Source: Sediminihabitans luteus
GTDB lineage: Bacteria > Actinomycetota > Actinomycetes > Actinomycetales > Cellulomonadaceae
Direction of reading: 5' to 3'
NCBI RefSeq assembly: GCF_002797595.1
Contig: NZ_PGFE01000001.1
Location: 62,001 to 126,000, forward strand
Length of the DNA stretch: 64,000 nt
In this document: one piece after another, positions 1,095 to 18,986 of the stretch
Position numbering within the stretch: position 1 is the first letter of the stretch
Layout: each line of letters begins with the position of its first letter
Notes under the pieces: model-generated
Told to the model about the DNA's origin: nothing
Databases searched by the model: none
The model's input: the letters and a program-made list of their open reading frames with translations, nothing else
Translations under genes and position numbers: made by a program

Positions 1095-1169
<75 letters not shown>

Positions 1170-1187
1170 GTTCTTGCTCCCGGGCCT

Positions 1188-1386: not shown

Positions 1387-1401
1387 TGTTGCGCCCCGGG
1401 T

Positions 1402-2666: not shown

Positions 2667-2747
2667 GACTCTCATCCTTCCGTGGAATGAGAGCCTCCAT
2701 CAGACCCGGGGCGCAACAGACTGCGGGTCGACGCGTGGGTGACCGAC

Positions 2748-3143: not shown

Positions 3144-3607
3144 TCCCCCCTCGAACTCCCCGCGTCTACGTAACTGAGCGGGTCGAACCGCCCCGTTAGT
3201 ACTGCACGGCGCACCGGGTCCTCGAGCTGAGACGCTGTCACGCGCCAAGCACGGACAACTTCGCGAATCGGCGCTGCGTCGTTGTCGGCCATTGCGATGA
3301 TGAGCGTCTCCTGCAGTTCCTCCGCGAACGCGCGCATGTCGTCGCGATCGAAAGCGCGAAGCCACGCTAGAGAGCCCAGGGTAGCCACGCCGAGTTGGCC
3401 TCCAGCATCCACGAGTTGCACGAGGCGCCGATGCTCAGCCGACCAGTGCGCAAGCTGCTCAAGCACCTCTAGGTCGCTCGCAGGCAGCGCAACGATGCTC
3501 GTGCCGTCGGCATCCCGCAGATGAGCGCGTCCCGTCTTCGCGGCATCGAGGAACTGACGGCGTTTGGTGTTAGTTAGGTCACTTGCCTGGAATATAACGT
3601 CCGGCAT
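3140..3607 (-). CDS. Phd/YefM-like antitoxin (155 aa)
   Basis: The first 50 residues follow the Phd/YefM pattern: a short beta-alpha DNA-binding head (FQASDLTNTKRRQFLDAA) and then a strand ending SIVALPASDLEVLE. The remaining 100 residues are helical and longer than in most Phd antitoxins, probably the toxin-binding part. A GGAGAGG ribosome site precedes the ATG. The gene sits directly behind a palindromic operator (3627-3660), as expected for autorepression by an antitoxin-toxin complex, and overlaps the putative toxin gene by 4 nt. Confidence 0.6.
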   Translation of the reverse strand: MPDVIFQASDLTNTKRRQFLDAAKTGRAHLRDADGTSIVALPASDLEVLEQLAHWSAEHRRLVQLVDAGGQLGVATLGSLAWLRAFDRDDMRAFAEELQETLIIAMADNDAAPIREVVRAWRVTASQLEDPVRRAVLTGRFDPLSYVDAGSSRGE

Positions 3608-3626
3608 GATTGCCTCTCCATCTCAG

Positions 3627-3660
3627 CAGGATCATACCTATGATCCTGCGCAGGATCGTA
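3627..3660. promoter_or_regulatory. Operator of the toxin-antitoxin pair: three spaced half-sites
   Basis: CAGGATCATA (3627-3636) and its exact inverted copy TATGATCCTG (3639-3648) are separated by CC, and a further half-site CAGGATCGTA follows at 3651-3660. The half-sites repeat every 12 bp. The position 20 bp before the antitoxin start suggests cooperative binding by the Phd-like protein. Confidence 0.65.
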
Positions 3661-3670
3661 CCGCACAACT

Positions 3671-3697
3671 TGTAGCACGGACGCCACTCGTGCTACA
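3671..3697. promoter_or_regulatory. Inverted repeat in the divergent promoter region of the TPR gene
   Basis: TGTAGCAC (3671-3678) and GTGCTACA (3690-3697) form perfect 8-bp arms around an 11-nt spacer. It lies just upstream of the TAGACT -10 element (3711-3716) of the TPR gene, where a repressor or activator would bind. It is unrelated to the antitoxin half-sites. Confidence 0.45.
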
Positions 3698-3722
3698 GGC
3701 CACACTTCCCTAGACTCTCGGC

Positions 3723-4937
3723 ATGCACGAGGACCCTCGCGGGACGATCAGCCCGAGCGAACTTGCCAAGACAGGCCCTGCCGGCCTTGTCGCAACCCTG
3801 CGTGGCGTGCTTCAGCGACGAGACGGGACCACCCCTCTGGAGGATCCGAACGCGCTTGTAGTGCACGCACTGCGGGTGCTGGAGCGACACGGCATCGATG
3901 GCGAAGCGTTCGTGCGTTACGGCATGGGGCCAACTTTGGTTTGGCCCGCACTGGGCGCTGTAGCCGTGTCGGCGATCCTTGAGCACGACAAGGTGGAGTA
4001 CAAGTCGCACATCGACGTGGCCGGATGGAAGGCCGCCCTCGGTTCACCCACGATCACACTCGACGACTCGATCGAGCTCGACTGGTTCGGCACGAGCACC
4101 TCGCTCCTGACAGCGTGGGCTCTATCGGCCCCCTTCAAGGACGTGTTGGCGCTCAAGCCCCCAGAGGCGAAGCACCTTCACTCCCTCCCCGCGCTCACCC
4201 AGGCCGATCACGACCTTACGGTCCGGTACCGCTGGCTCGTCGAGAGGTCGTCGGGAACCGAACTCGAAGCTTGGCACGCTGCTGAACTTCACCTCGAGTA
4301 CATGTGGGCTGACGGCAAGCTCGAGGCCCCCGTGCCTGCATCGCTGATGGCGGCACGCACGGTCGATCACGATCACCTCTGCCGCCTCATTGCAGAGCAC
4401 GCGGTTTACAACCCATTGGACGAAGAAGCAGCAGGCTGGCGCCGACTACTTAGCCGCATGCAGGAACAGGCACGGACCTTCCTTAAGCAACGTCGCTATG
4501 TCGAGGCCGCCGCCCTCTTCGAGTATCTTCTAACTCAGCGCCCAGGCGACCCTCAGGCTGCCAACAACTTGGGTTTCTGCCTCATCCCCGTCGACTCAAC
4601 GCGAGCAGCGGCCTGCTTCCGGGAAGCGCACAACGGCGGGTTCGAAGTCGGGTCACTGCTGCTATATAACCGGCTTTGCGCCGCGCAGGACGACGACGAG
4701 CTCGGCGACCTGATCCACACAGCCGATCGGCACTGGGTTAGCACTCTCGAGGAATCGCCCGAACCCGCGCTTGTCTGGAAGCGTACCTCGGATGGGACGT
4801 GGACCGAATTCGACACGAGGGACGTCAGAGGTGAACTCGCGCGACTGGCTTTGGAGGTGGCCGAGAGTCTCGGTCGCTTCGACCGGGTAGCAACCTGGCG
4901 CGAACGCGGCGCTTCCTTCCTAACGGCTGGCGAGTAG
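3723..4937 (+). CDS. Island TPR-containing protein of unknown function (404 aa)
   Basis: I cannot assign this protein to a named family. The first 230 residues are mixed alpha/beta without a recognisable catalytic motif. Residues about 245-310 contain two tetratricopeptide-like helical pairs (FLKQRRYVEAAALFEYLL and DPQAANNLGFCL), a scaffold for protein contacts. There is no signal peptide or membrane segment, so it should be cytoplasmic. TAGACT at 3711-3716 lies 6 nt before the ATG with no ribosome site between, which suggests a leaderless mRNA. It is the only gene in the island that is neither IS nor toxin-antitoxin, hence the likely cargo. A defence or stress role would be a guess. Confidence 0.6.
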   Translation: MHEDPRGTISPSELAKTGPAGLVATLRGVLQRRDGTTPLEDPNALVVHALRVLERHGIDGEAFVRYGMGPTLVWPALGAVAVSAILEHDKVEYKSHIDVAGWKAALGSPTITLDDSIELDWFGTSTSLLTAWALSAPFKDVLALKPPEAKHLHSLPALTQADHDLTVRYRWLVERSSGTELEAWHAAELHLEYMWADGKLEAPVPASLMAARTVDHDHLCRLIAEHAVYNPLDEEAAGWRRLLSRMQEQARTFLKQRRYVEAAALFEYLLTQRPGDPQAANNLGFCLIPVDSTRAAACFREAHNGGFEVGSLLLYNRLCAAQDDDELGDLIHTADRHWVSTLEESPEPALVWKRTSDGTWTEFDTRDVRGELARLALEVAESLGRFDRVATWRERGASFLTAGE

Positions 4938-5081
4938 CTCTAACCGCATCACACCTATGCGCCTCGCCCCGCTAGCCGACACTTCACAAAATCCGGACAA
5001 TGCATCGCAATTGCCATTTCACTTGGCTTGGGCAATCGTCGCGCGGCACCGCGTCTCGGGACGCAAGTTCAAGCCCGCCCG

Positions 5082-5119
5082 ATCCCTAGGTTGCAGGTTC
5101 GAGTCCTGCTCGGGGCACC
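5082..5119 (+). repeat. attR-like direct repeat (displaced tRNA-Arg 3' end)
   Basis: The second copy of the 38-bp repeat has no 5' tRNA half in front of it, so it is the original tRNA end pushed away by the insertion. The sequence changes character here: upstream is the lower-GC island, downstream the very GC-rich core operon. Confidence 0.85.
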
Positions 5120-5257: not shown

Positions 5258-6268
5258 ATGACCGTTCCCCCGCGCGCCCCCGCCGCGGTGAGCGCCCTCG
5301 ACCCCCGGCAGGCCGTCGCCGCCGGCCCTGCGATCGACGCGGCCACCGAGGCCGCCCTCGCCGACCAGGCCGCGCGTGTGGTCGCAGCCGTGCTCGCGAC
5401 GACGCCGGGCACGCCCGCCCACGACCAGGCCTGCCGCGACGTGCGCACCATGGGGGACGACGACCTGCGTGCCCTCGCCGCGGCCGCGGAGCGCGTCGGC
5501 GCGCTCACGGCGCGCGCGCTCGACGGCCCCGCGCTCGCGCCGGCCGGCGTGCTCACCGCAGCCGTCGAGGCGCTGCACGCAGCCCTCGCACCTGCCGCCC
5601 CGTCGCGCCGCCGCCTGTTCGGCCTGCTGCCCGCCCGTCGTGGGCCCAGCACCCCCGCAGCACGGCTCGGCTCGGTCGCGGACGACGTGGCCGCGGCCCT
5701 GGCCTCGTTGCGCGCCGCCCGCGACGTGCTGGCCCGAGACGCCGTCGCGCTGCGTCTCGACCAGGAGCGGCACGCCGGGACCACGGGCCGTATCGCCCGC
5801 TTCGCGCGCCTCGCGGCGCTCGTCGACGCAGGCCTGCACGACGCCCCGACGTCCCCTGCCACGTCCGTCCAGAACCCGATGACTGACACAGCCCTGATGA
5901 CCGACCCGACGGCAGGCCCGGCCTCGCTCGACGAGGCCCAGAGCGCCGCACGCCACCGGCACGCCGAGCTCGTGACCGCGCTCGCGGTCGCGGTCCAGGG
6001 CGACCTCGCGCTCGACCAGCTCGTGCGGACCGACGACGCGCTCGACGCCGCCGCGGATCGCGCGATCCGCACCGCGAGCGCCGCGCTCGACGCCGCGACG
6101 GCCGCCGGCGGGCTGGGCACCGCGGCACGGGAAGCGGCGGAGGCGCAGACCGCGCTCACCTCGGCGTTCGAGGCGCTCGCCGGGATCGAGGCCCTGCACG
6201 CCGACGCCCGCACCGCGGTGAGCGCGACGGGACGGGTCCTGACCACGACCGCACCGCTAGGCTCATGA
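5258..6268 (+). CDS. TelA-like (toxic-anion-resistance family) helical protein
   Basis: A 336-residue, Ala-rich, almost all-helical protein without signal or membrane segment. The order of segments fits the TelA family: a mid-part RRRLFGLL followed by a long helix with RDVLARDAVALRLDQER, then helices near 225-280 ending in a conserved-looking EAQTALTSAF. TelA proteins are linked to tellurite, antibiotic and envelope stress, but no biochemical activity is settled. It opens the ten-gene operon. The start has GAGGACGACG before the ATG. A possible -10 TAGCAT is at 5178-5183. The assignment is by pattern and moderately secure. Confidence 0.6.
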   Translation: MTVPPRAPAAVSALDPRQAVAAGPAIDAATEAALADQAARVVAAVLATTPGTPAHDQACRDVRTMGDDDLRALAAAAERVGALTARALDGPALAPAGVLTAAVEALHAALAPAAPSRRRLFGLLPARRGPSTPAARLGSVADDVAAALASLRAARDVLARDAVALRLDQERHAGTTGRIARFARLAALVDAGLHDAPTSPATSVQNPMTDTALMTDPTAGPASLDEAQSAARHRHAELVTALAVAVQGDLALDQLVRTDDALDAAADRAIRTASAALDAATAAGGLGTAAREAAEAQTALTSAFEALAGIEALHADARTAVSATGRVLTTTAPLGS

Positions 6269-6333
6269 CGCACTCCGCGACGTCCGACACCGCGACGGGA
6301 CGTCCGACACCCGAACGAGGAGCACCGCACCGC

Positions 6334-6927
6334 ATGGGCTGGTTCCGACGCACGATGGCCCGCCTGAGCGGCACCCCGCACGAGTCCGCCGCGCCGGTCG
6401 CGCCGCCGGCTCCCGCCGCGCCGACGAGCGCCGAGATCCTCGCCGCGGTCGACCGCGTGCAGGAGCGTCTCGACGCGAGCGTGCCGCGCGCCGTCACCGC
6501 CCGGGTGCAGCGCATCAGCGACACGGTCGACGAGATGGTGCCGCGGCTCGACCGGCTCGCGGTCGGCAGCGCGCAGGCGCACACCGTGGTCGCGACCGCG
6601 ACGAGCTACCTGCCCGAGGCCGTCGGCGCGTACCTGCGCCTGCCGCGCGACTTCGCGGACACGCGTCCCGTCGACCAGGGCCGCACGGCCCTGATGCTGC
6701 TGTGCGACCAGCTCGACCTGCTGGGCAGCACGCTCGACCGCATCTCGGACGCCGTCTCGCGTCAGGACGCCGACGCGCTCGTCGCGCACGGGCGGTTCCT
6801 CGCCGACACGCTCGGGCGGTCGTCGATCACGCTGCCCGACGTGCCCGCCGACCCGACCGCACCCGCAGACCCGCCCGCACCCGCACACCAGCCCGCGCAC
6901 CGACCGACGAACCAGGACCCCGCATGA
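6334..6927 (+). CDS. XpaC-like partner of the TelA-like protein
   Basis: A 197-residue protein. The N-terminus is basic (MGWFRRTMARLSG), followed by a Pro/Ala linker and a helical region with SYLPEAVGAYLRLPRDF, the kind of segment found in XpaC-type proteins that often accompany TelA. The C-terminus is a Pro/Ala tail. A GAGGAG site 11 nt before ATG 6334 supports this start. The alternative ATG at 6265 would overlap the upstream stop by 4 nt, as most junctions in this operon do. Function is unknown. It is cytoplasmic or membrane-peripheral. Confidence 0.5.
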   Translation: MGWFRRTMARLSGTPHESAAPVAPPAPAAPTSAEILAAVDRVQERLDASVPRAVTARVQRISDTVDEMVPRLDRLAVGSAQAHTVVATATSYLPEAVGAYLRLPRDFADTRPVDQGRTALMLLCDQLDLLGSTLDRISDAVSRQDADALVAHGRFLADTLGRSSITLPDVPADPTAPADPPAPAHQPAHRPTNQDPA

Positions 6928-8642
6928 GCGACCGTCTCGCCCGCGCCCTCGACGCGCTCGCCGCCGCGGGCTCGCGCGCGGGCCTGCCCGCGTCCGCCGC
7001 CCGTGACGAGGGCGCCGCGCTCGCCGCCGCCGTCGCCGCGTCGGCCTCGGGCGCCGCGCCCGCGTGGCTCGCGGCGTGCGAGCTGCCCGCCGAGCCGCTG
7101 CGCCCGTTCTTCACCGCAGCGGCACGCGGCCGACGCTGGCGCGCCGCGCCGACCGACCTCCTGGCCGCGCTCGCACGCGACACGTCGCCGCACGCCGCGG
7201 CCTACGGTGCTGCGCTCGCCGACGTCGTCGACGCCGCAGCCACGCTCGGGACCCCCGGTGCCGGGCAGCAGAGCGCGGCGCTCGCAACCGCCGCGGTGCA
7301 GCGCGCGGGCGGAGCGTCGCCCCTGCCGTCCGGCGCGCTCGCGGACCTGCCCGCCGGTCCGACGTCCGGCACAGGCACGGTCGCACCCACCAGCACCAGC
7401 ACCAGCACCGGCACCGGCACCGGCACCGGCACCGGCACCGGCACCAGTACCGCGGGCCGCGCTCCAGGGGTCGACCCCGCGCTCACGCGCATCCCGGGCG
7501 TCGCCGAGATCCTCGCGCGCCTCGACGAGGTCGGGGCATCGCTCGACCCGCTGAGCACCGGACCGTACGGCACGGCCCCGACCCCGCCGGTCGACGTCCG
7601 GCAGGACGCTCCGGGTGGCCAGCACGACGGGGCGACGGACCACGGGACGCCGAACCACGGGGCGACGGACCCTGCAACCACGGCCGCCGCGGGGGCGCCG
7701 TCCGACACGACCACCGAGGCCGCCGAGGCGCACCCGCCCCGCCCGCTCGCCGAGCTGCTGGCCGAGCTCGACGCGCTCGTCGGGCTCGAGGGCGTCAAGC
7801 GCGAGGTGCGCCGGCAGACCGAGATGCTGCGCATCGAGAAGCTGCGCGTCGAGGCCGGGCTCAACGCGCCCGCGCTCACGCGCCACCTGGTGTTCGTCGG
7901 CAACCCGGGCACGGGCAAGACGACGGTCGGCCGGCTCGTCGCCGAGATCTACCGCTCGCTCGGGCTGCTGAGCTCGGGGCACCTGGTCGAGGTCGACCGG
8001 TCCGAGCTGGTCGCCGGGTACCTCGGGCAGACCGCCGCGCGCACGACCGAGGTCGTCGAGCGCGCGCTCGGGGGCGTGCTGTTCATCGACGAGGCGTACT
8101 CGCTCGCGGGCGACCAGTACGGCCAGGAGGCCATCGACACGCTCGTCAAGGACATGGAGGACCACCGCGACGACCTCGTGGTCGTCGTCGCGGGCTACCC
8201 TCTGCCGATGGCCGACCTCATCGCGACGAACCCGGGGCTCGAGTCCCGGTTCTCGCGCGTCATCGGGTTCGAGGACTACGCGGTCGACGAGCTGCGCGAC
8301 ATCTTCGCGCGCATCGCCGCCAAGGCGGACTTCGTGCCGACCCCCGAGGCGCTCGAACGGTTCGAGCAGCTCGCGCGCGACGAGCCGCGCGGCCCGGGGT
8401 TCGGCAACGGCCGCTGGGCGCGCAACGTCCTCGACGCCGCGATGGCGCACCACGCGTGGCGGCTGCGCGACGTCGAGGCGCCCACGCTCGACGAGCTGCG
8501 CACGCTGCTGCCCGAGGACCTCGACGCCACGGACGGCACCGACGCCACGGACACGGCCAACGCACCGCCCGTAGCCGAGGCGCCGTCCGGGACGAGCACC
8601 GACGAGCAGGACCAGGCCCCCGCGCCCGAGGAGGACGCATGA
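6924..8642 (+). CDS. AAA+ ATPase of the CbbX/SpoVK type
   Basis: A 572-residue protein. The N-terminal half is Ala/Gly-rich and includes a Ser/Thr-Gly linker made by ten hexamer repeats (7392-7451). The C-terminal half is a CbbX/SpoVK-like AAA+ module: VGLEGVKREV entry, Walker A GNPGTGKTT (about 326-334), Walker B VLFIDEAYSL (about 385-394), and sensor-like ATNPGLESRFSR. Members of this class remodel or release partner proteins in an ATP-driven way. The ATG overlaps the previous stop (ATGA). In this operon it may remodel the kinase-phosphatase or TelA-like complex, but that is inference. Confidence 0.85.
   Translation: MSDRLARALDALAAAGSRAGLPASAARDEGAALAAAVAASASGAAPAWLAACELPAEPLRPFFTAAARGRRWRAAPTDLLAALARDTSPHAAAYGAALADVVDAAATLGTPGAGQQSAALATAAVQRAGGASPLPSGALADLPAGPTSGTGTVAPTSTSTSTGTGTGTGTGTGTSTAGRAPGVDPALTRIPGVAEILARLDEVGASLDPLSTGPYGTAPTPPVDVRQDAPGGQHDGATDHGTPNHGATDPATTAAAGAPSDTTTEAAEAHPPRPLAELLAELDALVGLEGVKREVRRQTEMLRIEKLRVEAGLNAPALTRHLVFVGNPGTGKTTVGRLVAEIYRSLGLLSSGHLVEVDRSELVAGYLGQTAARTTEVVERALGGVLFIDEAYSLAGDQYGQEAIDTLVKDMEDHRDDLVVVVAGYPLPMADLIATNPGLESRFSRVIGFEDYAVDELRDIFARIAAKADFVPTPEALERFEQLARDEPRGPGFGNGRWARNVLDAAMAHHAWRLRDVEAPTLDELRTLLPEDLDATDGTDATDTANAPPVAEAPSGTSTDEQDQAPAPEEDA
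7392..7451 (+). repeat. Hexanucleotide tandem repeat inside the AAA+ gene
   Basis: Ten 6-bp units: three AGCACC, six GGCACC and one AGTACC. They encode an alternating Ser/Thr and Thr/Gly linker between the N-terminal region and the ATPase module. Length change by slippage would keep the frame. Confidence 0.9.
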
Positions 8643-9970
8643 CCGTCACGACCACCCCGCCCGGCCCGGCGCCGTCCGCGGCCGTGGCCCCGGGTACCGA
8701 CCCGGGGCCCGCGGCAGCGCCCGCTCCGCCCGGGCGCCTCGCGCGCGCGGCGCACGCGCTCGCGCGGACGCCGGGCCGGCTGCGCCTCGCGCTCGCGGTG
8801 AGCGTGCTCGCGTGCCTCCTGGTCGGCGCCCTGGCGTACGAGACCGCACGCTCGCAGGCCGACGCGGTCGAGGCCGTGCGCGGCGGCACGCAGCAGGTCG
8901 TGGGCGGCCAGTCGGTGCGCGCCGACCTCGTCGCGGCCGACGCGACCGCGACCAACGCGTTCCTGGTCGGCGGTCTCGAGCCGCCCGAGCGCCGGGCCGC
9001 GTACGACGCGTCGCTCGCCGACGCCGCCGACATGCTCCGCACGCTCGCCGCGTCACGGCTCGGGGACGGCGCCCGGACCCCGCTGCCCTTCGCCGCGCTC
9101 ACCCGGTACACCGGCGAGATCGAGCAGGCGCGGGCCAACAACCGGCAGGGCTACCCCGTGGGTGCCGCCTACCTCGACTCGGCCTCGACGTCGCTGCGCA
9201 GCGACGTGCTCGCACCGCTCGCGACCGCGACGAGCGCCGAGCAGGCGCGCGTGGCCGCCGCGTTCGACGAGTCGTCGGGCGCCTCGCGCGCACTCGGCTG
9301 GTGCGCGCTCGCGATCCTCGCCCTCGTGGCCGTCCAGGTGTGGGTCGCCCGCCGCACCCGGCGCGTGCTCAACCCCTGGCTCGTGACCGCGACCGTGCTC
9401 GTGCTCGTCGTGACCGCGGGCGGGGCCGTGCTCATGGCCTCGATCGGGTCGACGACCGACGCGGTGCGCGACGGCCGCTACGCCGCCGCGAGCGCCGTGC
9501 TCTCGGCGCAGGCCGCGGCCAACGACGCGAAGTCGCAGGAGAGCGTCGGCCTGATCCGTCGCGGCAGCGGGCCCGACGTCGAGGTCGGGCTCGTCGAGTC
9601 GCTCGACGAGGCCCGGGCACACCTGGCCGACGCGGACGCGACCGGCGTGGGCGACCCCGCGCTCGGTGACGCGCTCGACGCGTGGGTCGACGCCCACGCA
9701 GGCGTGCGGGCGCTCGACGACGGCGGCGACTGGGACGCCGCGGTCGCCGCCGCGTCGTCCGACGACCCCGGGTCGTCGAACGACACCTTCGCCGCGTTCA
9801 CGTCGGCCGCCGACACGTTCGTGACCGACACCGTCACCACGCTCGACGCCGACCTCGACGAGTCCGCGGCCGTCGCGGACGCCGCCGCGGTGGTCGCCGT
9901 CGTGCTCGCGGCACTGGCCGCGCTCGCGGCCTGGCGTGGCATCCACCGCCGACTCGAGGAGTACCGATGA
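8639..9970 (+). CDS. glnX: GlnX-like four-helix membrane sensor
   Basis: A 443-residue protein with membrane segments at about 49-70, 215-235, 245-268 and 410-432. Two extracytoplasmic helical loops lie between TM1-TM2 and TM3-TM4. This is the architecture of GlnX, which links the amino-acid-binding lipoprotein GlnH to the cytosolic kinase PknG in mycobacteria and corynebacteria. The neighbours are exactly those partners: glnH follows with a 4-nt overlap and pknG is two genes further. The two loops have similar lengths and composition, as if duplicated. The family call rests mostly on topology and context. Confidence 0.75.
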   Translation: MTVTTTPPGPAPSAAVAPGTDPGPAAAPAPPGRLARAAHALARTPGRLRLALAVSVLACLLVGALAYETARSQADAVEAVRGGTQQVVGGQSVRADLVAADATATNAFLVGGLEPPERRAAYDASLADAADMLRTLAASRLGDGARTPLPFAALTRYTGEIEQARANNRQGYPVGAAYLDSASTSLRSDVLAPLATATSAEQARVAAAFDESSGASRALGWCALAILALVAVQVWVARRTRRVLNPWLVTATVLVLVVTAGGAVLMASIGSTTDAVRDGRYAAASAVLSAQAAANDAKSQESVGLIRRGSGPDVEVGLVESLDEARAHLADADATGVGDPALGDALDAWVDAHAGVRALDDGGDWDAAVAAASSDDPGSSNDTFAAFTSAADTFVTDTVTTLDADLDESAAVADAAAVVAVVLAALAALAAWRGIHRRLEEYR

Positions 9971-11022
9971 GCCGCTGGACCGCACGGACGGGCACGCGCC
10001 CGCCGCACCGCACCGCACCGCGGACGACGGCCGGCGCCCTCGCCGGGGCGCTCGCGGCGGCGCTGCTGCTCGCCGGCTGCGCAGCCGGCGGCACGGTGGA
10101 CCCCGGGACCGCGGCCGGGTCGACGGGCACGGGCACGGACTCGGCCACGGGCACGACCAAGGCCACGGACGCCGCGACCGCGGCTGCGCCGTCCGCCGCC
10201 CCGACCTGCGACGACGCGCTCGAGTCGTACGCGCCCGCGGACTCGCTGCCCGCCCCCGGGTCGATGCCCGCGGGCAGCACGATGGAGGCGATCCGCGAGA
10301 GCGGCGCGCTGCGCGTGGGCGTCTCGGCCGACACGCTGCTCATGGGGGCACGCGACCCGATCGACGGCGAGATCGAGGGCTTCGACATCGACGTCCTCGA
10401 GGACGTCGCCGAGGCGATCTTCGGCGAGCCGGGGCACCTGCGCCTCAAGGTCATCACGTCCGGTCAGCGCATCGACGTGCTCCAGGACCGCGAGGTCGAC
10501 ATGGTCGCCCGGGCGTTCAGCATCACGTGCGACCGCTGGGACCAGGTCGCGTTCTCGGCCGAGTACCTGCACGCCGGCCAGCGCCTGCTGGTGCCCCGCG
10601 ACTCGGACGTCACGGACTTCGGCGACCTCGCCGGTCGGCGCGTGTGCGCGCCCGAGGGCACGACGACGCTCGCCAACCTCGAGCGCTACCCCGACGTCGT
10701 GCCGGTGCCCGCGAGCACGCACACGCGGTGCCTGGTCATGTTCCAGCGCGGCGAGGTCGACGCGATCACGGGCGACGACACGATCCTCGCGGGCTTCGTC
10801 GCGCAGGATCCGTACGCCAAGGTCGTGGGCGAGCCGATCAGCGACGAGGCGTACGGGGTCGGCATGAACGCCGACGACGTCGACCTCGTCCGGTTCGTCA
10901 ACGGCGTCCTCGCCCAGCGCGTCGCGGACGGCGCGTGGCGCGCCTCGTACGACGAGTGGTTCGGTGTCGCGGGAGAACCCGCCCCGGCCCCGCCCACCCC
11001 GCTGTACGGGCGGACGCCGTGA
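9967..11022 (+). CDS. glnH: GlnH-like amino-acid-binding lipoprotein
   Basis: A signal peptide with lipobox LLLAGC (lipidated Cys 38) is followed by a Ser/Thr/Gly linker and a type-3 solute-binding domain (about 90-345). Typical segments are GALRVGVSADT, GFDIDVLEDVAEAIFG, FSITCDRWDQVAFS and GRRVCAPEGTTTLANL. GlnH proteins bind aspartate, glutamate, asparagine or glutamine outside the membrane and signal through GlnX. No transporter permease or ATPase accompanies it, which supports sensing rather than uptake. The ATG overlaps the glnX stop. Confidence 0.85.
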   Translation: MSRWTARTGTRPPHRTAPRTTAGALAGALAAALLLAGCAAGGTVDPGTAAGSTGTGTDSATGTTKATDAATAAAPSAAPTCDDALESYAPADSLPAPGSMPAGSTMEAIRESGALRVGVSADTLLMGARDPIDGEIEGFDIDVLEDVAEAIFGEPGHLRLKVITSGQRIDVLQDREVDMVARAFSITCDRWDQVAFSAEYLHAGQRLLVPRDSDVTDFGDLAGRRVCAPEGTTTLANLERYPDVVPVPASTHTRCLVMFQRGEVDAITGDDTILAGFVAQDPYAKVVGEPISDEAYGVGMNADDVDLVRFVNGVLAQRVADGAWRASYDEWFGVAGEPAPAPPTPLYGRTP

Positions 11023-12146
11023 GCGGCGTCGTCCCCGCGCCCGCACCCCCCGGTCGGCTGGGCGAGGCGCCGAGCGTGCTCGCGATCGAGACGTTCCTGC
11101 AGGGCCTGCGCGCGTGGTGCGCGGACCGTCGCGCGACGCTCGACCGCCTCGACGCGGCCGTCGGCACGGCCGACGACCCGTCGGCGCACACCTCCGACGT
11201 GCTGCTCGCCCTGACGCTGTGGCGCGCGGTCCAGGACCGGGCCGTCGAGCTCGACCGGACGTGGGCCGCGGGCGGCACCGACGTGCCCGCGCGCGAGACC
11301 GTGACCGGTCTGGTGTGGGGCCGGCTCGGCTCGGGCGACGGCTCGGCGCTCGTGTCGCTCGTCGAGGCCGTGCGCCTGTGCGACGCGCTCGTCACCTCCC
11401 TGTCGGCGCGGCTCGCCGGGACGCTCGACGCGAGCGAGGCGGCGACGCGGCTGCGCGCAGTGGGCGCAGCGCTCGCCCGGTGCGCCCGGCTGGGCGACGA
11501 CGCGGCCGTCACCGCGCTGCGCGCACGGCTCGACCGGGTGGTCGCCGACGCGGCGCGCGGCGCCGACGTGACCGGGCCGCTCGGCGAGATCGAGCGCGAC
11601 GTCGCGCGGACCGAGCGCGACCTGATCGTCGGGGCGTCGCGGCGCCACGCTCTCGGCACGGACCAGGCCTCGGCCGCGGCCCGCGCGGCAGCCCTCGAGG
11701 CACGCGAGCCCGTGCTGCGCGAGCTCGCGGAGCGCACCCGGGTCGAGGTGCTCGACCCTCCCCCGCACGCCGTGCCCGACGTCTCGCGCCTGGGCCCGGT
11801 GCCCGACGAGCGCGCCGCCCTCGACGCCTACATGAGCCGTCTCGACGCCGTCGAGCGCGCGATGGAGGTCGTCGAGGACGTCTACACCGCGCCGCTGCGC
11901 GAGCGCGCACGCCTGCGGTTCCGCATCGGTCAGCTCCTCGAGCGGGCCGTCGAGACCGGGCGCGCCGGGTCGCCGACGACGATCGCGGGCCACGCCGAGG
12001 CGCTCGCCGCCGTCGAGCGGACGCCCTGCGACCTGGCCGTCGCCCGCCACCTCACCGACCAGCTCGAGGTCGTCGTCCGGCCGTTGCCGACGACCACCCC
12101 GCACCGCACGGCGCACGCCGCCGGCCAGGAAGGACTCACCGCATGA
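11019..12146 (+). CDS. Helical protein of unknown function in the PknG operon
   Basis: A 375-residue, cytoplasmic, Ala/Arg-rich protein predicted to be almost all helix, with no catalytic motif that I can identify. Heptad-like stretches near 215-345 could form coiled coils (for example RLDAVERAMEVVEDVYTAP). The GTG start overlaps the glnH stop (GTGA) and the end overlaps the pknG start (ATGA), so it is made together with the sensor and the kinase. An adaptor between GlnX and the kinase module is plausible, but nothing in the sequence proves it. Confidence 0.7.
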   Translation: MSGVVPAPAPPGRLGEAPSVLAIETFLQGLRAWCADRRATLDRLDAAVGTADDPSAHTSDVLLALTLWRAVQDRAVELDRTWAAGGTDVPARETVTGLVWGRLGSGDGSALVSLVEAVRLCDALVTSLSARLAGTLDASEAATRLRAVGAALARCARLGDDAAVTALRARLDRVVADAARGADVTGPLGEIERDVARTERDLIVGASRRHALGTDQASAAARAAALEAREPVLRELAERTRVEVLDPPPHAVPDVSRLGPVPDERAALDAYMSRLDAVERAMEVVEDVYTAPLRERARLRFRIGQLLERAVETGRAGSPTTIAGHAEALAAVERTPCDLAVARHLTDQLEVVVRPLPTTTPHRTAHAAGQEGLTA

Positions 12147-14635
12147 GCGTCGAGAGCAGCACGTGCGCCACGCCCGCGTGCCCGGGCTCGATCGAGGACG
12201 GCTACTGCGACTACTGCGGCGCGCCCGAGGTCGACGCGTCCGGCGCGGGCTCCCCCGGTGACCCGCTCGACGAGGGCGCGACCCAGGCGGCGGCGTACAC
12301 CGGCTCCCCCGACCCGGCCGCGCACCCCGGGTCGTGGGCGGCGTCGGCCGCGGCTGCGCCGTCCGGCACCTCTGCGGGCGGCCCTGCAGGTGGGTCTGCC
12401 GGCGGTGGACCCGCGGCAGGTCTGTCCGCGTCAGGCGCCCCGGCGGCAGGTGCCCCGGCGGCAGCCGGCCGCGGATCGTCGAGCACGCGCCAGGAGTCCG
12501 AGCACGCGACCCGCGGGAGCAGCTCGGCCCGGCTCGCCGCGACCGCTCTCGGCTCGGCGCGCACGCGCGAGACCGGCAGCCGCGCGACGCGTCGGGTCGG
12601 CACGGGCTCGACCCGGCTGCGCGAGCACCGGCTCGGCGCCGGCCTGACGACGGTGCCGCCCACGACCGTGGGCGACCCGCGCGCCGCGGTCATGGCCGTG
12701 CCCGAGGTCCCCGAGCACAAGCGCTACTGCCCGAGCTGCAGCGCGCCCGTGGGACGCTCGCGCGAGGGCGTCGAGGGGCGCACGCAAGGGTTCTGCCCGC
12801 AGTGCGGGGTCCGCTTCGACTTCACGCCGCAGCTCGCGCCGGGCGACCTCGTCGGCGGGCAGTACGAGGTCGTCGGCTGCCTCGCGCACGGCGGCCTGGG
12901 GTGGATCTACCTCGCGCAGGACAAGAACGTCTCGGACCGCTGGGTGGTGCTCAAGGGCCTGCTCAACGCGGGCGACGCCGACGCGTACGCGGCGGCGATC
13001 TCGGAGCGGCAGTTCCTCGCCGAGGTCGAGCACCCGCTGATCGTCGAGATCTACAACTTCGCGATGCACGCCGGGGCCGGGTACACGGTCATGGAGTTCG
13101 TGGGCGGGCCCTCGCTCAAGGAGCTCCTGACGGCGCGACGTGACGCGAACGGCGGCGTGCCGGACCCGATGTCGCCCGAGCACGCCCTCGCGTACGTGCA
13201 CGAGGTGCTCCCCGCGTTCTCGTACCTGCACGACAAGGGGCTGCTGTTCTGCGACTTCAAGCCCGACAACGTGATCCAGCAGGGCGACGGGGTCAAGCTC
13301 ATCGACCTCGGCGGCGTGCGCCGGGTCGAGGACGTCGAGTCCGCGATCTACGGCACCGTCGGGTTCCAGGCGCCCGAGATCGCGTCGCTCGGCCCGTCGG
13401 TCGCCTCGGACGTCTACACGATCGGCCGGACGCTCGCGACGCTCGTGCTGGACTTCCGCGGCAACACGACGACGTACGTCGCGGCGCTCCCCCCGGTCGA
13501 GGACACGCCGCTGTTCCAGCGCCACGACTCGCTGTACCGGCTGCTCGCCAAGGCGTGCGCGGTCGACCCGTCCGACCGGTTCGGCACGATCGACGAGATG
13601 CGCGCCCAGACCCTCGGCGTGCTGCGCGAGGTCGTCGCCGCACGGGGCGGCGGGGGCGCGGCGCCGACGTCCGCGTCCTCGGTGCACTTCCACCCGCCCG
13701 TCGCCGACGTGCCCGACCGCCCGCTGCACTGGGACGAGCTGCCCGCGCTGCGCGCGGACGACGACGACCCGGGCGCGGGGTGGCTCGCCGGGGTCAACGT
13801 GCTCGACCCCGACGACCGTGTGCGTGCCCTCTCGGCCGCCCCCGTCGAGAGCCCCGAGGTGCGCCTCGCGCGCGGCCGCGCCGCGATCGAGGCGGGACGC
13901 CCCGGGGTCGCGCGCACCGCGATCGCCGACATGCTCGCCGACGACCCGTGGGAGTGGCGTGCCGCGTGGCTCGCAGGTCTCGTCGACCTCGCGACGGGCG
14001 ACGCCGCGGGCGCCTCGCGCTCGTTCAACGCCGTCTACGGCCAGGTGCCGGGCGAGCTCGCGCCCAAGCTCGCGCTCGCGACGGCGTGCGAGGGCCTGGG
14101 CGAGCTCGACGTGGCCGAGGCGCTGTACGACGTGTGCGCGCGCACCGACGCGAACTACGCCGCGCCCGCGGCGTTCGGCATGGCACGCATCCGCCTGAGC
14201 CGGGACGACGTCGACGGGGCGCTCGACGCCCTCGACAAGGTCGGCGCGACCCGCGGCTCGTACGTCGAGGCACGCCTGCGACGCGCCCGGATCCTCGCGG
14301 CCTCGGGCCGCGGGCTGCCCGCGCTCGCCGCGGCCCTCGAGAGCGTCGCGCACGTCGAGCTGCCCGCGCGCGAGGACGCCGGCCTGCGGGCCACCGTGCT
14401 CGCGTCGGCGCTCAACGTGGTCACGTCGGGCACGGTCGATCCGGGAAGCACAGTCGACCCTGCTGGCACCGCAGGCCCTGCCAGCACGGTCGGCGGTGTC
14501 CCCGCCCAGGAGGGGCCGCTGCGGGACGCGCTCGAGCGTGCCCTGCGCGACGTCGCGCTGCTCACCGACGACCACGACGAGCGGATCCGCGTCGTGGACC
14601 GCGCCAACACGGTGCGCCGCTGGACGCTGCGATGA
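12143..14635 (+). CDS. pknG: Serine/threonine protein kinase PknG with zinc ribbons and TPRs
   Basis: An 830-residue protein. An N-terminal zinc ribbon (CPGSIEDGYCDYCG, about 13-26) and a long disordered linker precede a rubredoxin-like pair (CPSC and CPQCG, about 194-220). The kinase domain (about 236-500) shows the PknG signature AHGGLGWIYLAQDKN, lysine in VVLKGL, FCDFKPDN in place of the HRD loop, LIDLGGVRR in place of DFG, and GTVGFQAPEI. The C-terminal 300 residues are TPR helices, as in known PknG. Known PknG phosphorylates the FHA protein GarA/OdhI and so controls 2-oxoglutarate metabolism in response to external amino acids. It is larger than mycobacterial PknG (750 aa) because of the extra zinc ribbon and linker. 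Confidence 0.92.
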   Translation: MSVESSTCATPACPGSIEDGYCDYCGAPEVDASGAGSPGDPLDEGATQAAAYTGSPDPAAHPGSWAASAAAAPSGTSAGGPAGGSAGGGPAAGLSASGAPAAGAPAAAGRGSSSTRQESEHATRGSSSARLAATALGSARTRETGSRATRRVGTGSTRLREHRLGAGLTTVPPTTVGDPRAAVMAVPEVPEHKRYCPSCSAPVGRSREGVEGRTQGFCPQCGVRFDFTPQLAPGDLVGGQYEVVGCLAHGGLGWIYLAQDKNVSDRWVVLKGLLNAGDADAYAAAISERQFLAEVEHPLIVEIYNFAMHAGAGYTVMEFVGGPSLKELLTARRDANGGVPDPMSPEHALAYVHEVLPAFSYLHDKGLLFCDFKPDNVIQQGDGVKLIDLGGVRRVEDVESAIYGTVGFQAPEIASLGPSVASDVYTIGRTLATLVLDFRGNTTTYVAALPPVEDTPLFQRHDSLYRLLAKACAVDPSDRFGTIDEMRAQTLGVLREVVAARGGGGAAPTSASSVHFHPPVADVPDRPLHWDELPALRADDDDPGAGWLAGVNVLDPDDRVRALSAAPVESPEVRLARGRAAIEAGRPGVARTAIADMLADDPWEWRAAWLAGLVDLATGDAAGASRSFNAVYGQVPGELAPKLALATACEGLGELDVAEALYDVCARTDANYAAPAAFGMARIRLSRDDVDGALDALDKVGATRGSYVEARLRRARILAASGRGLPALAAALESVAHVELPAREDAGLRATVLASALNVVTSGTVDPGSTVDPAGTAGPASTVGGVPAQEGPLRDALERALRDVALLTDDHDERIRVVDRANTVRRWTLR

Positions 14636-15732
14636 GCGGCACGCGCACGACCCGGTGCCCCGGGTGCGACGAGGCGGCCCCGCCGGACGCCCGCTTCTGC
14701 GAGGCCTGCGGCGCCGCGCTCGACCCGTCGACCGCGCCCGACCCCGCCCCGGCCCCCGCTCCCGAGCGCTCGGTCGCGTCGTCGACGACGTGGACTCGAC
14801 CTCCGAGCGCGACCTGCCGCGCGTGCGGCGGCCGCGTCTCCGCCGACGGCTACTGCGACACGTGCGGCACCCCGACGGTCCCGCCCCGCGACCACTGGGC
14901 CGAGTCGCCCGCACCGTGGGTCGCGGGCGTGTGCGACCGGGGCGTGCGGCACGCGCGCAACGAGGACGCCATGGCGATCGCCGTCACGGGCGACCGCGCG
15001 GTGCTCGTGGTGTGCGACGGCGTGTCCTCGGCCCCCGACTCCGACATCGCGAGCCTCGCGGCGGCGACCGCGGCACGCGACGCGCTGGTCGACCCCGCGG
15101 GCGCCCGGACCTCCGATGCTCTGGTCGCGGCCGCCGCCGCGGCGGAGCAGGCGATCCTGGACCACGTGGGCGACCGGGCGCAGCGGGTCGACCCGCCGTC
15201 CTGCACGTTCGTCGCGTCGGTCGTCGAGGGCTCGCGCGCCACGACGGCCTGGCTCGGCGACTCGCGCGCCTACTGGGTGCCGGACGGCGCGACGGCCGTG
15301 CCACTGACCGTCGACGACTCGTGGGTCGAGGAGATGGTCGCCCGCGGGATCGACCGCGCGCAGGCCGAGTCGTCGTCGCAGGCGCACGCCATCACGCGGT
15401 GGCTCGGACCCGACTCGGGCGACCACCCCCCGCGCGTGGTCGAGCACGACCTCGACACGCCCGGCTGGCTCCTGCTGTGCTCGGACGGGTTGTGGAACTA
15501 CTGTCCGGACGCGGCAACGCTCACCGACGTCGTGCGCCAGGCCCTCGCCCCGGTGGACGGCGGACCGGCGGACGGCGGACCGGCGACCCCGGCGAGCGCC
15601 GCGCAGCGCCTGGTGCGCTGGGCGGTCGAGCAGGGCGGGGCCGACAACATCACCGTCGTCCTCGCACGGCACGACGGCGATACGCTGCACTGCGACGAAG
15701 TGTCCGACGACGCCACGAACGAGGAGCCGTGA
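14632..15732 (+). CDS. PP2C-type protein phosphatase with double zinc ribbon
   Basis: A 366-residue protein. Two N-terminal zinc ribbons (CPGCDE...FCEACG and CRACG...GYCDTCG) are followed by a complete PP2C domain from about residue 98: VRHARNEDA, VVCDGVSS, GDSRAYW, LLCSDGLWNY and ADNITVVLA carry the metal-binding Asp residues. The usual DGMGG is DGVSS here. Overlap with pknG by 4 nt makes it the natural counter-enzyme of that kinase. It is cytoplasmic, with no transmembrane segment. Confidence 0.9.
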   Translation: MSGTRTTRCPGCDEAAPPDARFCEACGAALDPSTAPDPAPAPAPERSVASSTTWTRPPSATCRACGGRVSADGYCDTCGTPTVPPRDHWAESPAPWVAGVCDRGVRHARNEDAMAIAVTGDRAVLVVCDGVSSAPDSDIASLAAATAARDALVDPAGARTSDALVAAAAAAEQAILDHVGDRAQRVDPPSCTFVASVVEGSRATTAWLGDSRAYWVPDGATAVPLTVDDSWVEEMVARGIDRAQAESSSQAHAITRWLGPDSGDHPPRVVEHDLDTPGWLLLCSDGLWNYCPDAATLTDVVRQALAPVDGGPADGGPATPASAAQRLVRWAVEQGGADNITVVLARHDGDTLHCDEVSDDATNEEP

Positions 15733-15734
15733 CC

Positions 15735-17003
15735 ATGGCAGAGTTCACCGCCGAGGTCTTCCAGAACCCGTACCTCGGTCCGGGCGGCACCGACCTGCAC
15801 GCGATCGTGACGATCACGGCGCAGGGTGTCGAGGGCACCTCGCCCGAGGCCGCCGAGATCATCCTGGTCGACACCTCCGGGTCGATGACGGGCCCCGCGC
15901 TCGAGGCCGCGAAGCACGCGGCGCAGGTCGCGGTGGACCAGATCGCCGACGGCACGTGGTTCGCGATCGTGAGCGGCAGCCACGTCGCGCAGCGCACGTT
16001 CCCCTACCCCAACGCACGCCTCGCGATGGTGCCCATGGAGCCGGGCGCCCGCGCCGAGGCCAAGCGCGCGATCTCGGGCATGCGCGCGCAGGGCGGCACC
16101 GCGATGAGCACGTGGCTCGCGCTCGCGGACGAGCTCTTCGCGACCGTCCCCCAGGCGACGCGACGCCACGCCGTGCTGCTGACCGACGGGCGCAACGAGT
16201 CCGAGCCGCGCGCCCGCCTGAGCGAGGTCGTCGCGCGCTGCGCAGGGCGCTTCCAGTGCGACGCGCGCGGCGTCGGGTCGCACTGGCAGGTCGACGAGCT
16301 GCGAGAGATCGCGACGGCCCTGCTGGGCACGGTCGACCTCATCGCCTCGCCGCAGGAGATCGCGGCCGACTTCGAGCAGCTCGTGCGCGCCTCGATGGCC
16401 CGCGGCGTCGCGGCGGCCGACCTGCGCGTGTGGACGCCGGCGGGCGGCCAGGTGCTGTTCGTGCGGCAGGTCGCACCGACGCTCGACGACCTCACGTACC
16501 GCCGCACCCCGGTGGACCCCCTCACGGGCGCCTACCCGACCGGGTCGTGGGCCGACGAGTCGCGCGACTACCACGTCGCCGTCAGGCTGCCGTCGAAGCC
16601 CGTGGGCTCGGAGCAGCTCGGCGCGCGCGTCCAGCTCGCGGTCGACGGCGAGGTCGTCGTCTCGGGTCTCGTCAAGGCCCTGTGGTCGGACGACGACGCG
16701 CTGACCGCCCCGATCAACGACGAGGTCGCGCACTACACCGGGCAGACCGAGCTCGCGGCCGTGATCCAGGAGGGCCTGGCCGCCAAGGCCGCCGGGGACG
16801 AGGCGACCGCGACGACACGGCTCGGGCGCGCCGTCCTGCTCGCGAAGGAGACCGGGAACGACGAGGCCACGTCACGGCTGCGGCGCGTGGTGGACATCGA
16901 GGACGAGGAGCTGGGCACCGTGCGGCTACGACGCGAGGTCGACCGTCTCGACGAGATGGCCCTCGACACGGGCTCGACCAAGACGACCCGGGTGCGACGA
17001 TGA
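15735..17003 (+). CDS. VWA-domain protein with intact MIDAS
   Basis: A 422-residue cytosolic protein. The von Willebrand A domain spans about 35-220 with MIDAS residues in DTSGSM, the Thr in GGTAMS and the Asp in LLTDGRNE. The second half is a beta-rich domain followed by a helical tail. VWA proteins often act with AAA+ ATPases of the MoxR or CbbX kind, and one is encoded in the same operon. ATG 15735 is preferred because GAGGAG lies 8 nt upstream. A GTG at 15729 overlapping the previous stop is an alternative. Confidence 0.85.
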   Translation: MAEFTAEVFQNPYLGPGGTDLHAIVTITAQGVEGTSPEAAEIILVDTSGSMTGPALEAAKHAAQVAVDQIADGTWFAIVSGSHVAQRTFPYPNARLAMVPMEPGARAEAKRAISGMRAQGGTAMSTWLALADELFATVPQATRRHAVLLTDGRNESEPRARLSEVVARCAGRFQCDARGVGSHWQVDELREIATALLGTVDLIASPQEIAADFEQLVRASMARGVAAADLRVWTPAGGQVLFVRQVAPTLDDLTYRRTPVDPLTGAYPTGSWADESRDYHVAVRLPSKPVGSEQLGARVQLAVDGEVVVSGLVKALWSDDDALTAPINDEVAHYTGQTELAAVIQEGLAAKAAGDEATATTRLGRAVLLAKETGNDEATSRLRRVVDIEDEELGTVRLRREVDRLDEMALDTGSTKTTRVRR

Positions 17004-17980
17004 CCGCGCTCGTGTGCCCGGCGGGGCACGTCACGCAGGCGACCGACTACTGCGACACGTGCGGCGCGGTGCTCGTGGCCGCGGGAACGCACGCCTCCCC
17101 CGGCACGCCGGACGGCGCGGCCCCGGCCCGCACGGGTGCGACGAGCACCTCGGCCGCACGGCCCGGCGGGATCGGGTCGACCGACGTGCTGGGTGCGACC
17201 GTCGCGAACGGGGCGTGCCCGACGTGCGGTGCCCCGGCACGCGCGCGTGCGCTGTTCTGCGAGAACTGCGGGCACGACTTCACGACCGACGCGCCGCCCG
17301 CGTCGCCGTCGAGAGCCTCGTTCTCGGGGTCTTCGCCGTCCGGGTCGTCGCCGTCCGGGTCGTCGCCGTCCGGGTCATCGGTTCCCGGGTCATCGGTTCC
17401 CGGGGCCGCCCACGCCCCGTCGTCCGACCCGGCTGCGGGAGAGGTTCCGGCGGCCGAGACGGACCTCCCGTCGTCGTCGGCCCGCCTCAGCCGCGGGTGG
17501 ACGGGGTCCGCGCGCATCTCGACGCCCACGCACGCCCCCGAGTCGACGTCGCCGACCGCTCCGAGCCCGCCCGCGAGCGAGCCCTGGGTGGTCGAGGTGT
17601 GGACGGACCCGCAGTGGTACGAGGCGCAGCAGGCCGCCGAGCCGCTGCCGGCCCCGGCCCCGCCGGGACTCGTGCTGATCCGCGAGCGCAGCGTGCTCGT
17701 GGGACGCACGTCGCACTCGCGCAACATCCACCCGCAGGTCGACTGCGGCGACGACACCGGGGTCTCGCGCCGGCACTGCCAGCTCAACACCGACGGGCGT
17801 CGGTGGTGGGTCGAGGACCTGCGCTCGTCGAACGGCACCTACGTGGGCACGGCCGGGGCACGCCTGCCGTCCGAGGCCCTGCGGCCGGGCGACCGGCGTG
17901 AGGTGCTCGAGGGCGACCGCGTGTACCTCGGGGCGTGGACCCGGCTGTCGATCCGCAGGGCGCTGCCCGGCGAGTTCTGA
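17000..17980 (+). CDS. FHA-domain protein with zinc ribbons
   Basis: A 326-residue protein. Two zinc-ribbon modules (CPAGHVTQATDYCDTCG near the start and CPTCG...LFCENCG near 73-93) are followed by a Ser/Pro/Gly linker made by a 15-bp repeat. An FHA domain lies at about 228-315 with GRTSHSRNIHPQ, VSRRHCQL and SSNGTYVG, the phosphothreonine-binding loops. It is not a GarA/OdhI orthologue: it is more than twice as long and has no N-terminal ETT-type phosphorylation motif. As the last gene of the operon it is the likely reader of PknG phosphorylation. Confidence 0.88.
   Translation: MTALVCPAGHVTQATDYCDTCGAVLVAAGTHASPGTPDGAAPARTGATSTSAARPGGIGSTDVLGATVANGACPTCGAPARARALFCENCGHDFTTDAPPASPSRASFSGSSPSGSSPSGSSPSGSSVPGSSVPGAAHAPSSDPAAGEVPAAETDLPSSSARLSRGWTGSARISTPTHAPESTSPTAPSPPASEPWVVEVWTDPQWYEAQQAAEPLPAPAPPGLVLIRERSVLVGRTSHSRNIHPQVDCGDDTGVSRRHCQLNTDGRRWWVEDLRSSNGTYVGTAGARLPSEALRPGDRREVLEGDRVYLGAWTRLSIRRALPGEF
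17327..17401 (+). repeat. 15-bp tandem repeat inside the FHA gene
   Basis: Five 15-bp units: three close to GGGTCGTCGCCGTCC and two GGGTCATCGGTTCCC. They encode a flexible Ser/Pro/Gly linker between the zinc ribbons and the FHA domain. Confidence 0.9.
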
Positions 17981-18182: not shown

Positions 18183-18983
18183 ATGACCAGCACGCCGCCC
18201 GCGCCCGGGACCTCAGCGCCCACGACCGCGACGACCGCGACGACCGCGACGGCCAAGACAGCCGAGACAGCCGCGACGACCAAGACCGCAAAGACAGCCG
18301 CGACGACCGCGACGGAGCCGACCCCGGTCGTCGCCACGCCGAGCGCGCCCACGGCCCGCCGGCCCCGCCGCTCGCGCTGGGCGCTCGACGCGCGCGACCT
18401 CGCGCACGTCGCGACGTTCGCGGCACTCACCGCCGCGCTCGGCCTGGCCCCGCCGCTGTACGTGCTCGGCGGCGCCGTGCCGATCACCGCCCAGACGCTC
18501 GGCGTGATGCTCGCGGGCACCCTCCTGGGCGCCTACCGCGGCGCGCTCGCGATGGCGACGTTCGTCGCGCTCGTCGCCGCGGGCCTCCCGCTGCTCTCGG
18601 GCGGCCGTGGCGGCCTCTCGATCCTCCTGGGCCCGTCGGGCGGGTACGTCGTCGCCTGGATCGCGGGCGCAGCGCTCGTGGGCTGGCTCGTGCAGCGTAC
18701 GGTGGCCCGTCGCGGACTGTCGCACGGCGTACCGCGCAGCGCGTCGCGCACCCTTGCGCTCGACGTCCTGGTCGCGGCGCTCGTGGGCGGCGTCGCGTTC
18801 GTCTATGCGTGCGGCATCCCGTGGCAGGCCGCCATGCTCGGCCTCCCGCAGACCACGGTCGCGCTCGGGGCCCTCGCGTTCGTCCCCGGCGACCTGCTCA
18901 AGGCCGTCGTCGCGGCGTCCGTCACGGTCGCCGTCCTGCGCGCCTACCCGGCCGCACCCGTGCTGCGCGCGGCCCGGGGCTGA
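18183..18983 (+). CDS. bioY: BioY biotin transporter (S component)
   Basis: A 266-residue membrane protein. After a Thr/Ala/Lys-rich N-terminus of about 65 residues, itself made of short repeats, the BioY domain begins: DLAHVATFAALTAALGLAP, PITAQTLGVMLAG, LLGAYRGALAM, GRGGLSILLGPSGGYVVAWI and a final helix. There are about six membrane segments. BioY binds biotin and works with the ECF ATPase and T component encoded by bioM and bioN at the end of this operon. The ATG has GAGGAG 6 nt upstream. The long polar N-terminal extension is unusual for BioY, which is normally about 190-200 residues. Confidence 0.92.
   Translation: MTSTPPAPGTSAPTTATTATTATAKTAETAATTKTAKTAATTATEPTPVVATPSAPTARRPRRSRWALDARDLAHVATFAALTAALGLAPPLYVLGGAVPITAQTLGVMLAGTLLGAYRGALAMATFVALVAAGLPLLSGGRGGLSILLGPSGGYVVAWIAGAALVGWLVQRTVARRGLSHGVPRSASRTLALDVLVAALVGGVAFVYACGIPWQAAMLGLPQTTVALGALAFVPGDLLKAVVAASVTVAVLRAYPAAPVLRAARG
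18220..18318 (+). repeat. Short in-frame repeats in the 5' part of bioY
   Basis: Imperfect units based on GACCGCGAC and CCAAGACAG run for about 100 bp. They encode a Thr/Ala/Lys tract before the first membrane helix. The tract is low-complexity and probably disordered. Confidence 0.65.
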
Positions 18984-18986
18984 ACC

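Follow-up and report, generated by a model that had tools for sequence, protein, structure and literature searches.

PknG lies in a conserved ten-gene operon in Sediminihabitans luteus and many other actinobacteria

The kinase PknG has been studied mainly as part of a three-gene nutrient sensor, known chiefly from tuberculosis bacteria. The parts of the published accounts available to us (PMC6069109, PMC8546545, PMC9769921) present glnX-glnH-pknG as an operon of three genes, which they call conserved in Actinobacteria; other genes go unmentioned. In a 64,000-nucleotide stretch of Sediminihabitans luteus DNA (contig NZ_PGFE01000001.1, positions 62,001-126,000; hereafter "the window") seven further genes stand in the same operon, which raises the question whether all ten form one functional unit or whether a known pathway merely shares its promoter with its neighbours. 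The genes (g1-g10; window positions 5258-17980, + strand, in a genome of 3.42 Mb) encode, in order, a TelA homolog, a small helical protein, an AAA+ ATPase, GlnX, GlnH, a coiled-coil protein, PknG, a PP2C phosphatase, a VWA protein and an FHA protein. A preliminary description had already recognized ten co-directional genes, as we do; it also called the operon "fused", which is a matter of adjacency only. That the ten genes constitute one functional unit, an extended GlnH-GlnX-PknG pathway, is well supported by our analysis. Our best explanation of the whole, a unit with sensor, core and output modules, has in our estimate a probability of roughly 0.5.

Searches with the PknG_TPR model gave matches in 56 of 197 class genomes, 36 of 297 order genomes (35 over the cut-off) and 12 of 39 relatives. 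We examined the surroundings of these matches in 111 stretches, each at most 20 kb long (leaving out four sub-cut-off class places, the order genome G320 and the second piece of the match in G415), together with 80 further loci, the best 80 of 579 from one genome scan. All ten genes are present in 82 of these 191 loci, a count that includes repeats, as the same genomes occur in both locus sets, and in all 82 they are collinear and on one strand. GlnH alone is missing from six loci, 39 contain g4, g5 and g7-g10 without g1-g3, 21 contain only g4, g5 and g7, and the remaining 43 show other arrangements or are cut by contig ends. The genes g7-g10 are collinear in 138/138 loci that have all four, and 139 of the 141 loci with both g6 and pknG have g6 immediately upstream of the kinase gene. 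No flanking reading frame, used as a control, was common to more than ten other loci; since the order is kept in every ten-gene locus while the flanks are not conserved, the operon is not a chance arrangement. Conservation of gene order, the test set beforehand in the preliminary description, extends across many families, the carriers including Cellulomonas, Oerskovia, Promicromonospora, Pseudactinotalea, Serinibacter and Kineosporia as well as Kribbella, Nocardioides, Terrabacter, Intrasporangium, Phycicoccus and Granulicoccus. PknG thus sits in a fixed ten-gene operon in many soil and marine actinobacteria.

The genes are also tightly packed. This had been noted before with a count of eight of nine junctions, which is too low, since four-nucleotide ATGA/GTGA overlaps are possible at all nine (g9 has an alternative ATG start at 15735, 2 nt past the stop codon of g8). 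Among the 38 ten-gene loci of the 111 stretches, such overlaps are possible in 24-37 at seven of the nine junctions, in one at g1-g2 and in three at g8-g9; the rarity of overlaps elsewhere at these two junctions makes the window operon tighter than most. A promoter and terminator scan of the window found none and is uninformative, as shuffled sequences lead one to expect no promoters either.

The putative core comprises g6-g10. The product of g6 (11019-12146, 375 aa), left undescribed in the preliminary description, represents a new all-helical coiled-coil family and a putative scaffold. Its AlphaFold model is all-helical (predicted local distance difference test score, pLDDT, 91.5), without a Pfam or NCBIfam family and without a PDB match at E <= 0.001; a known fold was rejected at this threshold. 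PknG itself (g7, 12143-14635, 830 aa) combines an N-terminal zinc ribbon with rubredoxin, kinase and TPR domains (PF16919, PF00069, PF16918). It is followed by a PP2C phosphatase with a double zinc ribbon and metal-site motifs (g8, 14632-15732, 366 aa; PF13672, PF12773), a VWA protein with a metal ion-dependent adhesion site motif and VWA_3 and VWA_3_C domains (g9, 15729-17003, 424 aa; PF13768, PF18571), and a protein with two zinc ribbons and a C-terminal FHA domain (g10, 17000-17980, 326 aa; PF00498, PF13248). The motifs of the kinase, phosphatase, AAA+, VWA and FHA proteins are retained in most or nearly all of the 82 ten-gene loci; the DxSxS motif of g9 is present in 82/82, and the ribbon and FHA residues of g10 are conserved across 21 sequences.

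In the window the PknG ribbon, placed ahead of the rubredoxin domain, has the spacing C-x4-C-x8-C-x2-C, and its cysteines 8, 13, 22 and 25 are invariant in 16 sequences. The pattern [DG].?[YFW]C..CG was found in 79/79 PknG proteins of the ten-gene loci (three without the anchor dropped), 81/82 PP2C proteins and 79/82 FHA proteins; judged from these motifs, the three proteins share similar predicted N-terminal zinc ribbons. Of 87 loci with g1, g6 and g9, 85 have a PknG with the ribbon; the figures are 35 of 38 for loci with only g6 and g9, and three of 30 for those with none of them (11 loci without the anchor dropped; smaller mixed classes 7/13, 4/5 and 7/7). One locus (L037) keeps the ribbon in a genome that also has a ten-gene locus (L008).

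Joint absence is the second line of evidence for a larger unit. Among the 297 order genomes g6 was detected in 32, all within the 36 that have a PknG match; the four PknG-positive genomes without it are G298, G464 and G330, with reduced loci, and G320, which is below the cut-off. At the reduced loci g1, g2, g3, g6 and g9 are missing together (in G298, from the genus of the window, g8 as well), and PknG lacks the ribbon. It is the gene order conserved across many families, together with this joint absence in three lineages, that supports the larger functional unit well. Somewhat unlikely, by comparison, is an account in which the genes are only co-regulated neighbours, glnX-glnH-pknG keeping its GarA role and g1-g3, g6 and g8-g10 serving a separate process from a shared promoter. 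GarA homologs regardless of PknG in the relatives, TelA in 95 of 297 order genomes, also without PknG, to which it is therefore not specific, and the textbook glnX-glnH-pknG form alone in 14 of 54 PknG genomes of the class sample (without g1, g8, g9 and g10 at any examined PknG locus) all speak for such an account; it is harder to reconcile with a g6 family never found without a PknG match in 297 genomes, with an added ribbon on PknG that matches those of the PP2C and FHA proteins, or with clustering that survives reordering to 6-7-8-9-10-4-5 in three loci (L072, L078 and L193).

The sensor module consists of g4 and g5, and the family matches confirm the presence of the GlnH, GlnX and PknG genes of the sensing chain recognized earlier. 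The g4 product (8639-9970, 443 aa), with four transmembrane segments predicted from hydropathy, belongs to the GlnX family NF058618 (274.6 bits, cut-off 250) and falls outside the narrower equivalog NF041460 (105.4 vs 780). The g5 product (9967-11022, 351 aa) is a GlnH-type lipoprotein of solute-binding family 3 (SBP_bac_3, PF00497) with a lipobox-like LLLAGC, and its best solved match is M. tuberculosis GlnH (6h1u, E 9e-69). It retains the equivalents of Arg147, Arg169 and Asp250 of that protein, with Trp232 replaced by His and Thr162 by Ala (residue roles as given in the available part of PMC6069109); His occupies position 232 in 64/82 ten-gene loci. Of the three residues that mark an aspartate/glutamate-specific pocket (Arg147, Trp232 and Thr162), the window protein thus keeps Arg147. 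The ligand is likely to be an amino acid.

The tail of PknG differs between three-gene and ten-gene loci. The mycobacterial-type stretch T[QA]xx[FY]RPxF occurs in 9/21 three-gene loci vs 0/80 ten-gene loci, and a basic SxRxR in 0/21 vs 77/80. This bears on the possibility that FHA, PP2C, VWA and g6 merely regulate the kinase, g1-g3 being an assembly chaperone and the output remaining GarA and central metabolism. The change of tail hints at another docking partner and makes this explanation unlikely, even though the CbbX-type ATPase stands near known protein remodellers and GarA with the TT motif is encoded in all 12 genomes inspected. A GarA/OdhI homolog is present in 38/39 relatives, with or without PknG, in each case below the curated 200-bit cut-off; that of the window's genome (contig C2, 155.8 bits) has the TT motif. 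Because genomes with ten-gene loci encode GarA, PknG probably continues to have it as a separate target. We considered g10 as a paralog or replacement of GarA and rejected it: it scores 28.6 bits with the OdhI model against the 200-bit cut-off, and no TT motif was seen at its N-terminus.

The operon opens with g1 (5258-6268, 336 aa), a diverged, C-terminally truncated TelA homolog that scores 30.6 bits with PF05816 (cut-off 30). All 21 aligned g1 members match this domain, and the orthologs are matched down to E 5.6e-94; the window g1 is 25-29% identical to them in an alignment with a mean column identity of 65%, and it is without the C-terminal part of TelA. Its ratio of non-synonymous to synonymous substitution rates, 0.78-1.28, is the highest of the ten genes (0.28-0.69 for the others), values used for ranking only, with synonymous sites near saturation at this G+C content. 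A full-length TelA is encoded elsewhere in the genome (C7:55095-56057), and the TelA part of the operon may be eroding in this genus.

The second gene (g2, 6265-6927, 220 aa) encodes a small helical TelA-partner family (AlphaFold pLDDT 80.4), for which we found no Pfam family above the cut-off in 21 members, no NCBIfam family, and no similar PDB fold at E <= 0.001; here, too, a known fold was rejected at this threshold. The TelA-like part of the preliminary assignment thus stands, with the divergence and truncation given above, and the XpaC-like part does not: XpaC (PF10112) matched none of the 21 g2 members or eight TelA neighbours, and 0/98 class genomes in the class-wide search were over its cut-off. 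Strong g2 matches (at least 226 bits) occur in 31 order genomes, namely 30 with PknG and G205, an 89% complete assembly with g1-g3 on a 16-kb contig. Weaker homologs adjoin standalone TelA genes on their 3' side in genomes without PknG; in four such cases (L220-L223) TelA is followed by tandem g2-like paralogs.

The third gene (g3, 6924-8642, 572 aa) encodes an AAA+ ATPase of the CbbX/SpoVK/EccA type with a long N-terminal region and both Walker A and Walker B motifs. Its closest PDB structures are CbbX (3syk, E 1e-53) and EccA1 (9lur), and it scores 206.9, 243.4 and 236.9 bits with the CbbX, SpoVK and EccA equivalogs, below the cut-off in each case. The best family matches are AAA, AAA_lid_6 and the CbbX/SpoVK/EccA models, with no MoxR model among the Pfam and NCBIfam matches; by these matches g3 is not the MoxR-type ATPase of MoxR-VWA chaperones. 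The AAA+, VWA, PknG, PP2C and FHA genes of the preliminary description are all borne out by family matches. An envelope-stress system in which the TelA-AAA+-VWA part protects the membrane from toxic peptides or anions, with PknG as its switch, is improbable, as TelA is not partnered by XpaC here, the sensor that is kept belongs to the amino-acid binding proteins and the evidence stays at family level. That evidence, in the available parts of PMC12791056 and PMC3139573, is the place of Listeria lmo1966-lmo1967 and Lactococcus telA1/xpaC-like genes in envelope-stress responses and the nisin sensitivity of an lmo1967 mutant.

How widespread is the extended operon? Of the 54 PknG genomes in the class sample, 34 have g7-g10 (PknG-PP2C-VWA-FHA) at one locus and six have all ten genes; the corresponding numbers for the order sample are 30 and 26 of 34, several others being cut by contig ends. 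A seven-gene form is carried by Kitasatospora (L186, L192), by Actinoplanes and Paractinoplanes species (g6 weak or undetected) and, in the changed order given above, by Actinomadura (L193). In an unrooted FastTree phylogeny of 120 PknG cores all loci with g1-g3 group in a single 61-row clan (support 100), along with the reduced loci L010, L023 and L029 and with L037, a second copy; a separate clan, next to seven-gene loci, is made up of 14 of the three-gene loci and two that have pknG only. Some placements are uncertain owing to long branches (L111, L100, L101 and others), and with the tree unrooted the three-gene form is at most a putative reduction. Some large genomes have second, distant PknG copies, accompanied by a VWA gene (L111-L113) or by none of the other nine genes (L108-L110).

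Several observations weigh against a single unit of three modules. The set g1-g3 is missing in 48 of the 54 class-sample PknG genomes, which makes the output module optional. GlnH is absent from the six otherwise near-complete loci (L161, L162, L166, L178, L155, L034), which keep g1-g4 and g6-g10 with a diverged GlnX (in L034 further GlnX-like membrane proteins take the place of GlnH), so that the input module looks replaceable. As TelA is degenerate in the genus of the window, the unit may be able to do without TelA function in that genus. Finally, a tree-aware test of the PknG ribbon against g9 was not significant (11 independent pairs, 4.2 the same way and 1.0 opposite, median p 0.375), and this link is suggestive only. 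On the other side, TelA and XpaC homologs lie in envelope-stress regulons of the Firmicutes Listeria and Lactococcus, as reported in the same two sources.

The composition of the operon, its conserved order, the joint absence of genes and the retained catalytic motifs are direct observations; for the mechanism that we propose for the three-module unit, our confidence is moderate at best. As has been shown in mycobacteria and C. glutamicum, GlnH would here bind an extracellular amino acid and signal via GlnX. PknG would couple to GlnX through its TPR domain. PknG, PP2C and the FHA protein could then act as writer, eraser and reader, held together by their related zinc ribbons and a rigid g6 scaffold. 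The output module would consist of g1-g3 together with the VWA protein g9: phosphorylation and FHA docking might recruit or release the CbbX-type ATPase and the VWA protein, and these would remodel TelA and its partner g2, probably either in the cytoplasm or on the membrane. That the proteins form a physical complex, what its substrates are and which way control runs are what we infer here. Of the larger machine envisaged in the preliminary description, the functional unit is upheld by order and joint absence; that it couples the sensing of amino acids to an output driven by the ATPase is plausible, and we infer it only.

Compared with the GlnH-GlnX-PknG(-GarA/OdhI) system of Mycobacterium and Corynebacterium, the window has an orthologous sensor lipoprotein, a GlnX-family protein, PknG with rubredoxin, kinase and TPR domains, and a GarA homolog elsewhere in the genome; besides the seven further genes, it differs in the extra ribbon and another linker of PknG and in the GlnH pocket. 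As in TelA-XpaC pairs, the gene after TelA encodes a small helical protein, but g2 is not XpaC by Pfam and TelA is linked to AAA+ and PknG. The AAA+ core and lid of g3 resemble those of CbbX, SpoVK and EccA, whereas its neighbours and long N-terminal region do not. The TerY-P triad groups a VWA protein, a PP2C phosphatase and a Ser/Thr kinase, the TerY-type VWA protein having a C-terminal zinc domain. The operon likewise unites VWA, PP2C, kinase and zinc ribbons; here the kinase is PknG, and GlnX/GlnH, FHA, g6 and AAA+ are added. The Pfam scan of g9 gave no TerY_C match, only VWA_3, VWA_3_C, VWA_2 and VWA. A role in anti-phage defence was also considered and set aside, the PADLOC matches of the operon being generic kinase and ATPase models. 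No description of the extended operon was found in the open-access literature, most subscription papers and preprints lying outside the search, which fits the earlier suggestion of an undescribed system.

Downstream of the operon, outside the conserved unit, lie a BioY gene and a gene for an AMP-binding enzyme (18183-20384). Upstream, a 38-bp repeat of the 3' end of tRNA-Arg(tct), at 1132-1169 and 5082-5119 (97% identical), brackets a 3.95-kb stretch with a G+C content largely of 59-66% vs ~75% around it. The stretch contains an IS3-like transposase pair (HTH_Tnp_1 at 2175-2675 and an rve integrase core at 1405-2337) and a second HTH_Tnp_1 fragment (1200-1433). In a congener (L043) the tRNA is only 22 bp from g1. 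The region 1132-5119 probably represents the insertion of a small island that now separates the tRNA from the operon.

Should the phosphatase, FHA reader, VWA protein and scaffold accompany PknG at most loci beyond the model organisms, candidate binding partners of GlnX and of the TPR domain and N-terminus of PknG would be named by the operon and directly testable. The extended operon would also give TelA, widespread and of uncertain function, a regulated setting. We put forward, as a tentative possibility, that PknG was ancestrally the switch of a nutrient-gated remodelling machine built of a helical scaffold, a zinc-ribbon-tethered kinase, phosphatase and FHA reader, and a VWA protein, to which one clan adds a CbbX-type ATPase that acts on TelA; the mycobacterial and corynebacterial three-gene pathway would then be its reduced remnant. 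If this is true, some of the biology of PknG may be due to partners lost from the model organisms.

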